Origin: Ectothiorhodospira sp. BSL-9
GTDB taxonomy: Bacteria; Pseudomonadota; Gammaproteobacteria; Ectothiorhodospirales; Ectothiorhodospiraceae
Length of the DNA stretch: 64,000 nt
Assembly (NCBI RefSeq): GCF_001632845.1
Contig: NZ_CP011994.1
Coordinates: 558,001 to 622,000, forward strand
Direction of reading: 5' to 3'
Shown: one piece after another, positions 27,585-33,381 of the stretch
Layout: each line of letters opens with the position of its first letter
Numbering within the stretch: the stretch's first letter is position 1
Position numbers and translations under genes: made by a program
Notes under the pieces: generated by a model
What the model saw: only the letters and a program-made list of their open reading frames with translations
Databases searched by the model: none
Told to the model about the DNA's origin: nothing

Positions 27585-29156
27585 TCAGGGCTTGCCGGGC
27601 ATCTTCGGCACCCACACCATCACCTTCTCCAGCAGTTCGCCATCCAGTTGCGCCTCGGCGGTGAAGCGGCCTGCGTAGGCCTCGTCCTCCTGCCCCAGTT
27701 CGTAGCAGTTGGAACCGCTGATATCCATGAGCACCGCCGGTATGCCCGCATTGCGAAAGGCATGGATGCGCTTGAGGTAGAAGTGGCTGCAGCACATGCC
27801 CACGTAAGCGGGCTCACCTCGGGCCTGCATCTGCTCCAGCACCTGGCACAGATGCTCAAAACGAGTGATGGTCACCACCTCCAGCCCCCGCTCCCGGGCC
27901 AGACGGTAGGCCTCGCCCACCTCGCAGGCCCCGCATTCCGGGCAGCCATCCTCGTGACGCCACCGGCACCAGGCCGGTTTGGCGCAATAGGGCACCAGCA
28001 TCACCGTGGCCCGATCCAGGATCTGCCGGGCGGTCTCGTTGCCACTCACCCGATGCACCATCAACCGGTTGGCCTGCCAGCTGGACAGCCCCAGGGCCTG
28101 CTCGGAGCGACGCCCCAGGGCCAGGCGCAGCAGCAGCGACAACTCATCGGGCCCGAAACCGGGCGTCTGCCCCGCTTCGGCTCGAAGGCGCCGGATCAGG
28201 CGCACCTCGGCGGCATCCATGGGCGCACCCGTGATGGCATCGGCCAGGGAGTCGAACAGGTCGGGGGGTGAAACATGCACAGCACCGGCGAACACAGCCT
28301 GCTCGATCACGCTTCCCTGTGCATCGGGTGTGAGGCGCAGATGCAACACGCCGCCGGCGGTGGGCAGGAAGGCCTCCCAGCGATCCTGACGCTGATGGGA
28401 CCAATCTTCCCGCAGGGCCGGATTCACGGAAGGCGGTGGCCTGCCCTGATCCAGCACCATCCAGCGATCAGGCGGCGCGGCCACTGGCTCCAGGGCCAGT
28501 TCCTTCATCAGTGCCTGGGATGCCGCCGCCTTGGCCACTTCCATGTCCGGGGCGTCGCCGGGGAGGTCCCCCAGGGTGATGAAGCGCTGACGGGCACTGA
28601 GGATGCCCTGGGTACTGAGCTTTTCCCGGGGCGCGCGCAGTACCTTGAGCAGCACTTCGGTGTCCAGGTCCTCCAGCAGGACCGCCTGGTAGAGCACCGA
28701 CTCGGCATCCATGGCCAGAAAACCGGACCCCAGCTTGCGGCCATCCACTTCCAGGTCGTTGGGAAACGCCGTGCGCACGGGCACGCCCAGGCTTTGCAGG
28801 GCGCGGGCCAGGGCCCGGTTGAGGCGGGCCATGAGGGCAGTGAGGGTATCCCCCTCCCCCAGCCAGTGCCGGGGCAGGGTCAGGCTCAGGCAGCATTGTT
28901 CCGGGGCCAGGTACAAGGCCCCGCCGCCGGTGAGGCGACGCACCACGGGAATACCCACCTCGGCACAGTACGCCTCGCGCACCGCATGGCACCCGGCCTC
29001 GAAGCGGCCAAGGCTGGCGGTGGGCTGGTAGCGATGAAACCGCAGCCGCGCCTCATCTGCAGCCACGCACCCCTCCAGGTGGAGGCGGTCCCGCGCGGCC
29101 TGCACGGAACCCGGCGCGGCCGGCTCGCTCCACACCCGGCAGGGCCGGGTGCTCAT
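27585..29156 (-). CDS. Lipoate-protein ligase A domain fused to DUF116
   Basis: The product has 523 residues. Residues about 1-250 form a biotin/lipoate ligase domain with VVRRLTGGGALYLAPEQ (residues 71-87) and the catalytic-Lys loop DLEVDGRKLGSGF (Lys141). A middle accessory region follows. Residues about 370-515 are a Cys-rich DUF116 domain (PYCAKPAWCRW, DGCPECGACEVG, YVGMCCSHFYLKRI), which probably binds metal or an Fe-S cluster. It is the last gene of a five-gene operon with ubiU, ubiV and two radical SAM genes, overlapping ubiV by 4 bases. The target protein and cofactor are unknown. Confidence 0.82.
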   Translation of the reverse strand: MSTRPCRVWSEPAAPGSVQAARDRLHLEGCVAADEARLRFHRYQPTASLGRFEAGCHAVREAYCAEVGIPVVRRLTGGGALYLAPEQCCLSLTLPRHWLGEGDTLTALMARLNRALARALQSLGVPVRTAFPNDLEVDGRKLGSGFLAMDAESVLYQAVLLEDLDTEVLLKVLRAPREKLSTQGILSARQRFITLGDLPGDAPDMEVAKAAASQALMKELALEPVAAPPDRWMVLDQGRPPPSVNPALREDWSHQRQDRWEAFLPTAGGVLHLRLTPDAQGSVIEQAVFAGAVHVSPPDLFDSLADAITGAPMDAAEVRLIRRLRAEAGQTPGFGPDELSLLLRLALGRRSEQALGLSSWQANRLMVHRVSGNETARQILDRATVMLVPYCAKPAWCRWRHEDGCPECGACEVGEAYRLARERGLEVVTITRFEHLCQVLEQMQARGEPAYVGMCCSHFYLKRIHAFRNAGIPAVLMDISGSNCYELGQEDEAYAGRFTAEAQLDGELLEKVMVWVPKMPGKP

Positions 29157-30046
29157 GCCGATAAGCTCTCCTGCCAGTTCATGCCGGCCTCGCCCTTCCA
29201 GTAGCCGTTGGAGAACCGTGGGTACAGGCCCCTGATCTGCTCCATGGCCTGAGCGGAGGAGCGGGTGCCGTCAATGCAGTCGCGGAAGGCCTGGATCACC
29301 TGCTCGGTGCCCTCGGGCTCGGGGGAGATGCGCAGCACCTCCACGCCCATGTCCAGCAACTCCGGCACGGCCTCGATGAGGTTGCAGGGGTCGGCGGACT
29401 GCAATTCGATGCCATTGATGGTGAGAAAGCCCTTGCCGTCCTGAGTGGACATGGACAGACCGCCGGGGTAGTCGATGCAGGCCAGCTCGCAGCTGTCCTT
29501 GGGCAGGTTGCGGGCCCGGGCGGTGAAGCAGCGAGCGGAGAAGGCCAGGGGCAGACGCCCGAAACCCCACACCTCGGTCTCCAGCCCCTCGGGCCGGGCC
29601 GCGTGCATGGCTGCCAGGATGTCCCGGGACAGCTCCACCGGCATCACCCAGCGCACGGCGCCCACGTCGGCCAGCTCCTTGAGGGTGCCAGCGTTATAGG
29701 TGTTGATGTGAGGGCCGGCCACGAAGGGCTTGCCCATGGAGAGGCCCAGGCCGGTGGCATCGTTGGCCTCGATCATGTAGCGGCCGTTGTTCACCAGACG
29801 CTCCAGGGCCAGCTGCTCGGATTCTGCCTCCATGAGGGCCAGGGTGGACATGACCACCGTCTTGCCAGACTCGCTCAGGCGATCGGCCAGCTCCAGCCAG
29901 TCAGCGGCACGCAACTCGCGGCGCTTGGAGCACACCGTCTCGCCCAGATAGACGATATCCACCGGGGCGGTTTCGATGGCCTTGTAGAAGTCCATGACCC
30001 GTTCGCGGGGCCAGTAGTATGGAATCGGTCCCAGAGAAAGTTTCAT
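29153..30046 (-). CDS. ubiV: UbiV, O2-independent ubiquinone hydroxylation (U32 family)
   Basis: The 297-residue U32-family protein starts KLSLGPIPYYWPRERVMDFY. Cys39, Cys173, Cys186 and Cys190 reproduce the spacing of the four cluster cysteines of E. coli UbiV (39, 180, 193, 197), expected to hold a [4Fe-4S] cluster. UbiV acts with UbiU and UbiT to hydroxylate ubiquinone precursors without oxygen. It has 4-base overlaps with ubiU upstream and the lipoate-ligase fusion downstream. ubiT is not in the window. Confidence 0.94.
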   Translation of the reverse strand: MKLSLGPIPYYWPRERVMDFYKAIETAPVDIVYLGETVCSKRRELRAADWLELADRLSESGKTVVMSTLALMEAESEQLALERLVNNGRYMIEANDATGLGLSMGKPFVAGPHINTYNAGTLKELADVGAVRWVMPVELSRDILAAMHAARPEGLETEVWGFGRLPLAFSARCFTARARNLPKDSCELACIDYPGGLSMSTQDGKGFLTINGIELQSADPCNLIEAVPELLDMGVEVLRISPEPEGTEQVIQAFRDCIDGTRSSAQAMEQIRGLYPRFSNGYWKGEAGMNWQESLSA

Positions 30047-31059
30047 TGCCAGGCTCTATGCAAGGCACCCAGGGTCTGGGTGCGTCCTTCGGACATGCCG
30101 GCGAGCTGCTCGGCCCATTCCGGCTTCGGCTTGTAGTTGTCGGGGTTGGCGTGCACCGCATCCAGGGCCTGACGCATCACCTGCGTGGCCTTGCCCACGT
30201 AGGCGGGGCTGCGCTGGCGACCTTCCAGCTTGATGGCCTTGACGCCCGCTTTCAGCAGATCGGGCAGGATGTCCAGGGTGCTCAGGCTGGTGGGTTCCTC
30301 GATGGCATACACGGTGTCCTGGCCGTCACCCACGTGATAGCGGCCCTTGCAGATCACCGGGTAACCGGCACTCTCGCCTTCCCGGAAGGTGTCGATGAGC
30401 ACGCCGTTGAGGCGGGCCTCGCGGCCCCGGTCGGTCTCGATCCAGCGCACCGAGTGGGCCGGGGAGCAGGCACCCTTGGTGTTGGGGGAGTCGCCGGTGG
30501 CATAGGAGGACAGCATGCAGCGCCCTTCCACCATCACGCACAGGCTGCCAAAACCGAATACCTCGATGTCCACCTTGGTGCGCTCGATCACCTGGGCCAC
30601 CTGGGACAGGGACAGCACCCGGGGTAGCACGGCACGGCGCACGCCATAGCGGTCGTGATAGAAGTTGAGGGCCTCGGCGGTGGTGGCCGAGCCCTGCACG
30701 GACAGGTGCAGGGTGAGATCGGGATGATTGTCGGCGGCATGGCGCATCAGGCCCAGGTCCGCCAGGATGACGGCATCCACGCCCTCGACAGCAGCGGCGT
30801 CCACCGCCTCGGTGGCGGCCTTCCAGATATCCGGCTGGGGATAGGTATTCAGGGCCATGTACACCTTGGTGCCCTTGCCATGGGCATAGGCGATGCCCTT
30901 GGCCAGGGCCTTGCGATCGAAGTTCAGGCCCGGAAAGTTACGGGCATTGGTCTCGCCGCGCAGGCTCAGGTAGACGGCGTCGGCGCCGTGGTCCACCGCC
31001 GTGCGCAGCGCGGGCAGGCCGCCGGCAGGGCAGACCAGCTCCATACGTTGTGGGTTCAT
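30043..31059 (-). CDS. ubiU: UbiU, O2-independent ubiquinone hydroxylation (U32 family)
   Basis: The 338-residue product counts from the ATG at 31059 (NPQRMELVCPAGGLPALRTA); an upstream in-frame extension lies inside the preceding gene and is rejected. Cys174, 181, 198 and 237 match the 7/17/39 spacing of the E. coli UbiU cluster cysteines. With UbiV it forms the heterodimer for anaerobic ring hydroxylation of ubiquinone. The start overlaps the stop of the radical SAM gene by one base (TGATG) with CAGGAGAG as ribosome site. Confidence 0.95.
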   Translation of the reverse strand: MNPQRMELVCPAGGLPALRTAVDHGADAVYLSLRGETNARNFPGLNFDRKALAKGIAYAHGKGTKVYMALNTYPQPDIWKAATEAVDAAAVEGVDAVILADLGLMRHAADNHPDLTLHLSVQGSATTAEALNFYHDRYGVRRAVLPRVLSLSQVAQVIERTKVDIEVFGFGSLCVMVEGRCMLSSYATGDSPNTKGACSPAHSVRWIETDRGREARLNGVLIDTFREGESAGYPVICKGRYHVGDGQDTVYAIEEPTSLSTLDILPDLLKAGVKAIKLEGRQRSPAYVGKATQVMRQALDAVHANPDNYKPKPEWAEQLAGMSEGRTQTLGALHRAWQ

Positions 31060-32015
31060 CAACAACTCTCCTGGGTTCCGGGAAGGTGACTGTCTGGGTA
31101 GGGATGGCGCGCACCCTGGCGGGTGCCCCGGCGCATGAGTTCCTGTTCGATGCCGTTGATCGCGTTCCACTTGCTGGCACACCAGTCGGGGGCCAGCAGC
31201 AGGGGTTCGCGGGCAGTGGCGGTCAGGCGGTGGAACACCACCTCGGGCGGGGTCATCTCGATGAGGTCAACGGCGGTGTTCACGTATTCATTCAGGGTCC
31301 AGGGTCGGTATTCCCCGGCGCGCCATTGTCGGGCCAGCTGGGTGCCACGCACCACATGCAGGGGATGAAGCTTGAGGCCGTCGGTGCCCTCGCTGAGCAC
31401 GCGGCTTAAGGTCTCGCGCTGATGCCAGGGGGTCTCGCCGGGCAGGCCGTGGATCAGGTGGGTGCACACCAGCAGGCCCCGACGGCGGGCGCGGTTCACG
31501 GCGTCCTTGTATTCGCCAAAGCCATGGCCGCGATTCACGCGGTTGAGGGTCTCGTCGAAGGCCGTCTGCAGGCCCAGCTCCAGCCAGATGAGATAGCCCT
31601 GATCCTGATAGGCGCACAGCAGGTCCAGCACCTTGTCAGGCACGCAGTCAGGGCGGGTGCCAATGGCCAGGCCCACCACGCCGGGTTGCTCCAGGGCGGC
31701 ATCGTAGAGGTGCTTGAGGCGATCCACCTCGGCATAGGTGTTGGTGTAGGCCTGGAAATAGGCCAGGTAAAGACTGGCGCCGTTGCGCCGGACGATGACC
31801 TCACGCCCCTCGCGCAACTGACGGGCCACTTCGCCGCCATCCTGGCCCTGGGGGGCGAAGCTGTCGTTGTTGCAGAAGGTGCAGCCGCCGCGCCCGCGGG
31901 TGCCATCCATATTGGGGCAGACGAAACCGGCGCTCACGGTGAGCTTGTGCACCCGCTGGCCGAAACGGGCCTTGAGGTCGCGGCCCAGGGTATTCACGCG
32001 GTCACTCAGTCCCAC
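31059..32015 (-). CDS. TIGR01212-family (YhcC-like) radical SAM protein
   Basis: The 318-residue product starts GLSDRVNTLGRDLKARFGQR, followed by the characteristic TVSAGFVCPNMDGTRGRGGC and cluster residues CxxxxxxxxxCTFC (GGCTFCNNDSF), as in YhcC/TIGR01212. Further motifs are YLAYFQAYTNTYA and GTRPDCVPDKVLDLL. The biochemical reaction of this family is not settled. It is the second gene of the ubiUV operon, 3 bases after the gene upstream. Confidence 0.88.
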   Translation of the reverse strand: MGLSDRVNTLGRDLKARFGQRVHKLTVSAGFVCPNMDGTRGRGGCTFCNNDSFAPQGQDGGEVARQLREGREVIVRRNGASLYLAYFQAYTNTYAEVDRLKHLYDAALEQPGVVGLAIGTRPDCVPDKVLDLLCAYQDQGYLIWLELGLQTAFDETLNRVNRGHGFGEYKDAVNRARRRGLLVCTHLIHGLPGETPWHQRETLSRVLSEGTDGLKLHPLHVVRGTQLARQWRAGEYRPWTLNEYVNTAVDLIEMTPPEVVFHRLTATAREPLLLAPDWCASKWNAINGIEQELMRRGTRQGARHPYPDSHLPGTQESC

Positions 32016-32018
32016 GGG

Positions 32019-32648
32019 TCAGCCCACCTGGTCCAGCACGCGCCGACGGAACCCCACGCCCAGATCTCGGGCGATGGCTTCGCAGGCAGGGATATCCACA
32101 CCGGCCAGGCCGTCCACGGCGGTGAGGGTCACCTCGGGCACATGGGCCCGGGCCTTGCGGGTGAAGTCCAGCAGGGCGGCATGGGCGCCGGGGAGTTTGG
32201 GGCGGCAGTGGCGCTCGTAGGTGAATTCGTCCTGAGCGTTCAGGGAGATGGACAGGGCATCGATGCAGCCGGCCATTTCAGGGGTCACATCGCGGCCATG
32301 CACCAGGCTGGCCAGGCCGTCGGTATTGATGCGCACGCAGCGGGCGCCCCGCGCCTTGACGTCACGGGCCACTGCCAGGATGTCATCCAGCCGCAGGGTG
32401 GGCTCGCCCAGGCCGCAGAAGACCACCGCCTCCCACTGGGCCGGGTCGCCCACCGCCTCGATCATCTCGGCCACGGTGGGGTCGGCGTGCATGCGCAGGC
32501 CATAGCCCTGCACGTCCCAGGTCTTGTTGAACTTGGGGCAGAAGGCGCAACGCAGGGTGCAGCGGTTGGTCACATTCAGGTAACGGCGCCCGTGTAGCGT
32601 GTAGCCCACCACGCGCTCGGTGTCGTGGTGGTTGGCCGTTTGTTGCAT
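32019..32648 (-). CDS. TatD-associated type radical SAM protein
   Basis: The 209-residue product has LNVTNRCTLRCAFCPKFNKT (CxxxCxxC), FCGLGEPTLRLDDI and CVRINTDGLASLVHG, matching the TIGR04038 TatD-linked radical SAM group. No tatD nuclease gene is adjacent here. It is first in the operon with the YhcC-like protein, UbiU, UbiV and the lipoate-ligase/DUF116 fusion. The substrate is unknown. Confidence 0.8.
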   Translation of the reverse strand: MQQTANHHDTERVVGYTLHGRRYLNVTNRCTLRCAFCPKFNKTWDVQGYGLRMHADPTVAEMIEAVGDPAQWEAVVFCGLGEPTLRLDDILAVARDVKARGARCVRINTDGLASLVHGRDVTPEMAGCIDALSISLNAQDEFTYERHCRPKLPGAHAALLDFTRKARAHVPEVTLTAVDGLAGVDIPACEAIARDLGVGFRRRVLDQVG

Positions 32649-32788
32649 GTCGTATAGAACCTCTGTGGCATGCGGTCCGGGCGGCTGAAAACCCGCCCCG
32701 CCGACCGCGGCGCGAGTGTGCCGGGAAAGCCTACATTAAACCTCAAGTATGGGGGCGCTGTCATGCCCCGTGCCCACCCTGCCGTCTC

Positions 32789-32813
32789 CCCTTCTCCCGC
32801 CAGCGGGAGAGGG
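32789..32813. repeat. CTCCCGC hairpin repeat near the dcd 3' end
   Basis: TCTCCCGC / GCGGGAGA with a 2-base loop, flanked by CCCT/AGGG, abuts the dcd stop. It is a relative of the hairpin at 903-928. It may serve as a terminator for dcd on the minus strand. Confidence 0.65.
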
Positions 32814-32814
32814 C

Positions 32815-33381
32815 TCAGGTCTTGGGCAAGGTCACTCCCCGCTGCCCCTGATACTTACCTCCCCGATCCTTGTAGGACACATCGCACAACTCATCCGACT
32901 CCAGGAACAGCATCTGCGCCACGCCTTCGTTGGCATAAATCCGCGCCGGCAGCGGCGTGGTATTGGAAAACTCCAGCGTCACATGGCCCTCCCACTCCGG
33001 CTCCAGGGGCGTTACATTGACGATCAACCCGCATCTTGCGTAGGTGCTTTTTCCGAGACAAATAGTCAGGATTGATCGTGGAATACGAAAGTATTCAAGG
33101 GTATGCGCCAGCGCAAAGGAGTTGGGGGGGATGATGCAGACATCCGACTTCACGTCCACGAAGCTGCGCTCGTCGAAGTGCTTGGGGTCGACGATGGTGG
33201 AGTTGATGTTGGTGAATACCTTGAATTCGTCCGCGCAGCGCACGTCGTAGCCGTAGCTGGAGGTGCCGTAGGAGATGATGCGCTCATCCCCGGCGTAGCG
33301 CACCTGGCCTGGCTCGAAGGGCTCGATCATGCCGTGTTCTTCCGCCATGCGGCGGATCCAGTGGTCGGATTTGATGGCCAT
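32815..33381 (-). CDS. dcd: dCTP deaminase
   Basis: The 188-residue full-length Dcd starts [20 protein letters not shown]. Family motifs [37 protein letters not shown], the catalytic-Glu region [20 protein letters not shown] and the C-terminal [14 protein letters not shown] are present. It deaminates dCTP to dUTP for dTTP synthesis. It lies downstream of apbC on the same strand with a 3-base gap. Confidence 0.96.

Follow-up and report, generated by a model that had tools for sequence, protein, structure and literature searches.

We analyzed a window of 64 kb (positions 558001 to 622000) of the 3.55-Mb, one-contig genome of Ectothiorhodospira sp. BSL-9, in which five genes on the minus strand form a compact operon. 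In the order of transcription, they encode a radical S-adenosylmethionine (SAM) protein of the TIGR04038 family, an MnmL/YtqA-type radical SAM protein, the anaerobic ubiquinone hydroxylation subunits UbiU and UbiV, and a protein, here called FUS, in which a lipoate-ligase-like region (LplAB) is fused to a DUF116 domain (Table 1). All the reading frames are intact and the junctions measure +3, -1, -4, and -4 bases, the first being the gap between the TIGR04038 gene and the MnmL gene, so that the overlapping five-gene arrangement described in the original prediction, which was made from the sequence alone, is confirmed. The subject of this analysis is FUS, which is tied to the LipS1/LipS2 lipoate pathway and, additionally, to anoxic ubiquinone synthesis.

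Table 1. Features of the five-gene operon, in the order of transcription (coordinates are positions of the 64-kb window)
Feature	Position	Strand	Characteristics
TIGR04038 radical SAM protein	32019..32648	-	209 aa; NCBIfam TIGR04038, 235.9 bits (cut-off 129.7); CxxxCxxC motif CTLRCAFC
MnmL/YtqA-type radical SAM protein	31059..32015	-	318 aa; GTG start; TIGR01212, 381.8 bits (cut-off 180)
UbiU	30043..31059	-	Anaerobic ubiquinone hydroxylation subunit; NF047963, 524.6 bits (cut-off 440); 1-base overlap with MnmL
UbiV	29153..30046	-	Anaerobic ubiquinone hydroxylation subunit; NF047965, 391.9 bits (cut-off 275); 4-base overlap with UbiU
LplAB-DUF116 fusion (FUS)	27585..29156	-	523 aa; Pfam domains; 4-base overlap with UbiV
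LplAB part of FUS	28108..29156	-	Motifs R73-R74-x-T-G77-G78-G79-A80, N133-D134, K141; LplB-like accessory domain to about residue 349
DUF116 part of FUS	27585..28079	-	PF01976 match; conserved Cys391, 397, 405, 408, 411, 456, 484; Rossmann-like core

The lipoate-ligase-like region of FUS spans approximately residues 1 to 350 and the Cys-rich DUF116 domain approximately residues 376 to 486, and both are recognized by Pfam (LplA-B_cat, PF21948, 88.7 bits with a cut-off of 27; DUF116, PF01976, 36.9 bits with a cut-off of 25). In the AlphaFold2 model (pLDDT 92.2, pTM 0.91), residues 6 to 349 align with lipoate ligases over their full length, accessory domain included, as in the case of the Mycoplasma structure 6jom_A (Z 29.9, 2.9 Å over 312 residues). 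Furthermore, the window protein retains the motifs RRxTGGGA and ND, and its catalytic-type Lys141 lies in the triplet GRK, which bears out the anticipated fusion of a ligase retaining its catalytic Lys with a Cys-rich DUF116. The nearest named relative is the FUS of E. haloalkaliphila, with 95% identity. The Lys141 column is conserved in 80 of 84 aligned members, and the ligase site is intact in most of them; however, the motif K-x-S-G-T-G, which follows the catalytic lysine in sLpl proteins, is replaced in the main FUS clade, and the window protein scores 71 bits against the lipoate--protein ligase equivalog TIGR00545, far below the cut-off of 280.

The conservation of the DUF116 part is stricter: cysteines 391, 397, 405, 411, 456, and 484 are invariant in the 84 members and Cys408 is found in 83 of them, with the caveat that the contig scan picked FUS loci by DUF116 peptide patterns, a selection that favors conserved C391 or C455/C456. 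The remaining five cysteines are free of this bias, and the members found by hidden Markov model (L158 to L166) retain the cysteines as well. In particular, six members (L106, L117, L128, L156, L164, and L166) present a degenerate ligase site, with Lys141 changed to T, R, or Q or with GGG or ND lost, and keep the DUF116 cysteines. Since the cysteines survive where the ligase site degenerates, this pattern of residues suggests that DUF116 is the more essential of the two parts. Modeled alone, the domain (pLDDT 91.5) shows a Rossmann-like core with a Cys-rich loop. Sequence and fold searches of the PDB with DUF116 alone returned no close relative and only Rossmann-like arrangements, uninformative on function (a de novo Rossmann 2x2 fold, Z 8.9; type II dehydroquinases, Z of about 7), and the lack of a PDB match is no proof of a new fold. 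As for the literature, our search found no paper joining DUF116 and lipoate, and the matches for DUF116, judging by their titles and abstracts, were unrelated and gave no function for the domain.

Among 50 FUS-bearing genomes from several classes, LipS1 is present in 48 and UbiV in 45. In a class sample of 370 gammaproteobacterial genomes with completeness of at least 90%, LipS1 was found in 30 and UbiV in 101; the 15 genomes with a full-length FUS span ten family codes. FUS occurs in 11 of the 13 genomes having both LipS1 and UbiV, in 1 of the 17 with LipS1 and no UbiV, in 3 of the 88 with UbiV and no LipS1, and in none of the 252 with neither. FUS is associated with LipS1 (odds ratio 75, Fisher p 3e-12) and with UbiV (Fisher p 7e-8), and each association is retained when the other gene is held constant (p 1.5e-5 for UbiV within LipS1-positive genomes and 1.7e-10 for LipS1 within UbiV-positive genomes), these p-values overstating the evidence because the genomes are related. 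Its occurrence in 11 of the 13 genomes combining LipS1 with anaerobic ubiquinone synthesis makes FUS look like a missing part of the LipS1/LipS2 pathway.

In the tree of the ligase region, the window protein falls in a clade of 47 rows made of fusion proteins only (SH-aLRT 83, rising to 99 for 46 of them), and the sLpl(AB) rows form a separate group (97) that does not include it. Two fusion-type proteins, from Sporomusa and Chloroherpetonaceae, group on the sLpl side; hence, the DUF116 fusion may have arisen repeatedly, unless the tree resolves the clades imperfectly. FUS is the fourth member of the LplA/LipB superfamily in this genome, beside sLpl(AB), a LipB-like gene, and another Lpl. Standing in its own clade beside sLpl(AB) and tracking the LipS1/LipS2 pathway, it is not an ordinary LplA.

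These data bear on the explanation that FUS is an isoform of sLpl(AB) for anoxic conditions, simply another octanoate/lipoate:protein ligase, with DUF116 as a regulatory or oxygen-sensing appendage. The full ligase fold and the intact site of most members speak for it, and, beside lipT and lipS1/lipS2 on contig L144 (Chloroherpetonaceae), no Lpl was seen other than a ligase that bears DUF116 and has an sLpl-type site. On the other hand, wherever LipS1 is present in the class sample, a separate sLpl(AB) is found beside FUS, and the replaced K-x-S-G-T-G motif, the low TIGR00545 score, and the members that lost ligase residues while retaining the DUF116 cysteines speak against a plain ligase. We judge this explanation unlikely, while counting it as a serious contender.

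The gene order around FUS is conserved well beyond chance. The block FUS-UbiV-UbiU-MnmL, with or without the first radical SAM gene, is found at every FUS-bearing Ectothiorhodospira locus retrieved and also in genomes resembling that of Thioalkalivibrio denitrificans, where, as in E. mobilis, it lacks the first radical SAM gene; the order is likewise kept in many beta- and gammaproteobacteria. Overall, FUS adjoins UbiV in about 39 of 79 related loci, many of them arranged as MnmL-UbiU-UbiV-FUS, and MnmL lies upstream of UbiU in about 25 FUS loci. The TIGR04038 gene neighbors MnmL/UbiU at several further loci, some bearing FUS and some free of it. UbiT, nrdD, nrdG, hemN, or an FNR-type regulator is often nearby, FUS sometimes lying between UbiV and UbiT. 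In about 14 of the 79 loci, FUS adjoins lipS2 instead, mostly together with lipS1, lipT, and sLpl(AB); these loci belong to Thioalkalivibrio, alphaproteobacteria, Sporomusa, and the Chloroherpetonaceae contig. The rest have mixed neighbors or lie on short contigs. The divergent FUS genes of the f107 family (L158, L159, and L160) are solitary, near mgtE/nhaD-like transporters, in genomes that possess UbiV and neither LipS1 nor LbpA. A contig labeled Micrarchaeota holds UbiV and FUS, shares its motif stretches with a proteobacterial contig (L136, L138), and is probably mis-binned.

As a control on the order, we considered 20 UbiV loci without adjacent FUS (18 from FUS-free genomes and two from genomes with FUS elsewhere), most of them taken from the genomes with the highest UbiV scores and thus non-random. 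UbiU-UbiV is intact in all 20; MnmL lies upstream of UbiU in most of these loci, and many also have the TIGR04038 gene and UbiT. Since these loci are intact without FUS, the first four genes of the operon represent a conserved unit of their own, to which FUS is an optional addition.

It could be supposed from the linkage that FUS is a partner of UbiU and UbiV in ubiquinone synthesis, acting in sulfur, oxygen, or electron transfer, as had been proposed at first for sulfur and oxygen. The gene overlap in Ectothiorhodospira and the adjacency of FUS to UbiV, frequently with UbiT on its other side, would fit such a role, as would the presence of UbiV in 14 of the 15 FUS genomes of the class sample, three of them without LipS1. 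However, FUS is missing from 85 of the 88 UbiV-positive genomes that lack LipS1, no UbiV was found in 5 of the 50 FUS-bearing genomes, intact UbiUV(T) blocks occur in its absence, and the anaerobic UbiTUV pathway of E. coli, in which UbiUV carries out the O2-independent hydroxylations of ubiquinone, has been described without such a gene (PMC6747719). With so many UbiUV genomes devoid of FUS, we regard this role as highly improbable.

UbiU and UbiV of the operon both pass the curated cut-offs. In E. coli, eight cysteines of the two proteins bind [4Fe-4S] clusters (PMC6747719), and, as the original prediction stated, all eight are kept here: Cys174, 181, 198, and 237 of UbiU show the spacings 7/17/39, equal to those of E. 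coli C169/C176/C193/C232, and Cys39, 173, 186, and 190 of UbiV correspond to E. coli C39/C180/C193/C197 (Cys39 plus the spacing 13/4). UbiT is located outside the operon, with a candidate (37% identity) about 54 kb beyond the window. The two radical SAM genes were considered as LipS1/LipS2 and ruled out, given that they match TIGR04038 and TIGR01212 and that LipS1/LipS2 are encoded elsewhere in the genome. MnmL belongs by its NCBIfam name to a predicted tRNA-modification family, and the TIGR04038 family is named "TatD-associated" radical SAM; the TIGR04038 gene is an accessory gene of the UbiUV block. Both genes adjoin UbiU/UbiV in many FUS-free gammaproteobacteria (L204 to L223), and the adjacency of MnmL ties a tRNA-modification family to anaerobic ubiquinone synthesis in an unexplained way. 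A literature search on MnmL, YtqA, and YhcC found no useful paper.

Upstream of the operon (32649 to 32815), no convincing FNR box could be noticed by eye, no formal scan having been made. The adjoining gene (32815 to 33381) encodes a dCTP deaminase and has no insert in the window, and its orthologues in E. magna and E. mobilis (L084:4625-6325 and L086:5246-6949) are interrupted in frame by about 380 codons that bear the hallmarks of an intein (CFRGDTRV ... HNHKV ... FVRN/C).

The genome also provides the lipoyl-domain partners that the role in lipoate assembly would require. The shdr genes, LbpA1, LbpA2, lipS2, sLpl(AB), lipT, and lipS1 are clustered at 266 to 285 kb (with the LipS1 gene at 272.8 to 274.0 kb), in the arrangement described previously (PMC10332631), and GcvH is encoded as well. 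In a 2.0-Mb genome with the same genus code (G006, L168), LbpA1 and LbpA2 are present with no LipS1 match and no FUS; since the carriers occur without a LipS1 match, they may be lipoylated another way, or the lip genes may have been missed.

Furthermore, a third LbpA-like carrier family, marked by ESGKWAGG and a C-terminal CMRC (40 to 45% to LbpA2 and 65 to 78% within itself), was identified in six FUS-bearing genomes (L198 to L203, e.g., L199:8690-9133; L117:2696-3136), in several of which it adjoins FNR-type regulators or narK/narX-like genes. It is conceivable, on this basis, that the co-transcription is only regulatory and that FUS serves another anaerobic lipoyl protein, such as this third carrier near nitrate-respiration/FNR genes. 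However, the genome of the window and at least four other FUS genomes have no third carrier, and the survey for it covered FUS-bearing genomes. We consider this explanation improbable.

The analysis establishes the anatomy, fold, and conservation of FUS together with its gene linkage and co-occurrence; its association is observed, and its chemistry is inferred. On balance, we lean slightly toward FUS being a lipoate-assembly accessory of sulfur oxidizers able to live without oxygen as well, expressed together with the genes for anoxic ubiquinone synthesis. According to this proposal, the operon would join two functional modules because both are needed for anoxic growth: a widely conserved anoxic block (the TIGR04038 radical SAM protein, MnmL, UbiU, and UbiV) and FUS, acting as an auxiliary to the pathway (LipS1/LipS2/sLpl(AB)/LipT) by which the LbpA carriers used in sHdr sulfur oxidation receive their lipoate. 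A further regulatory link of the two modules, by analogy, is offered by Hyphomicrobium denitrificans, where ubiXDTUV transcripts decrease when the sulfur-responsive repressors sHdrR and SoxR are lost (PMC12423496). The initial idea of an anaerobic route for a lipoyl-type cofactor is close to the data, owing to the separate clade of FUS and its co-occurrence with LipS1/LipS2, except that the two radical SAM enzymes are not lipoate enzymes and accompany UbiUV without FUS. Likewise, the expectation that the five products are needed together would hold for growth without oxygen and not for a single pathway. Gene order alone is misleading here, since an operon can join different pathways through the common need for anoxia.

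With regard to the mechanism, the ligase-like domains might recognize LbpA, the octanoyl or lipoyl moiety, or both, leaving ligation to sLpl(AB), and the DUF116 cysteines might hold an iron-sulfur or sulfur center aiding sulfur insertion. LipS1 and LipS2 have one auxiliary [4Fe-4S] cluster each, which is the likely sulfur source, and perform about four turnovers in vitro (PMC9585515); for this reason, a donor is wanted, and DUF116 would most plausibly renew the auxiliary clusters given up by the two enzymes. A protein recognizing the octanoyl carrier and equipped with a Cys-rich center would suit such a role. It is possible to hypothesize, in the most specific form, that DUF116 serves LipS1/LipS2 as their own sulfur or iron-sulfur donor, with the ligase domain having become a docking module that brings it to octanoylated LbpA, a speculative scheme that we rate as distinctly unlikely in its entirety. 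If true, it would define a new kind of lipoate-assembly factor and the first function for the DUF116 domain.

Several points weigh against the accessory role, in addition to the relatedness of the genomes. FUS is not strictly required, because two genomes with LipS1 and UbiV (G120 and G247) do without it; three genomes of the f107 family (G192, G296, and G378) carry a divergent FUS with no LipS1 and with canonical GcvH only; most members keep the catalytic residues, so that a plain second ligase is possible; and the iron-sulfur role predicted for DUF116 derives from seven invariant or nearly invariant cysteines, in a fold with no informative PDB relative. The LipS1/LipS2 pathway has been described only recently, a FUS-type protein is not mentioned in the literature that we searched, and FUS makes it testable how LipS1/LipS2 regain their lost auxiliary clusters and what DUF116 does.

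What is new at this locus is a DUF116-fused sLpl-like protein, tied to the LipS1/LipS2 pathway and set in an anoxic ubiquinone operon, and comparison with the nearest known systems defines its position. The operon contains standard members of the UbiTUV pathway in UbiU and UbiV, with their eight cysteines, whereas FUS, MnmL, and the TIGR04038 protein do not figure among its described components (PMC6747719) and FUS is absent from most UbiUV genomes. With the LipS1/LipS2 lipoyl synthases (PMC9585515), whose genes lie elsewhere in this genome, the proposed role shares the kind of carrier acted on, while the radical SAM proteins of the operon are of other families. As in other DUF116 proteins, the C-terminal domain of FUS is Cys rich and fits the family profile (PF01976), but here it is fused to a ligase. 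The closest counterpart is sLpl(AB) (PMC10332631), which has the same LplA and LplB domain layout, includes the nearest sequence relatives (31 to 44% identity), and is found in the same genomes and sometimes in the same cluster; different from sLpl(AB), FUS belongs to a separate clade, bears an additional C-terminal DUF116 and a changed motif after the catalytic lysine, and represents an additional copy where LipS1 is present.

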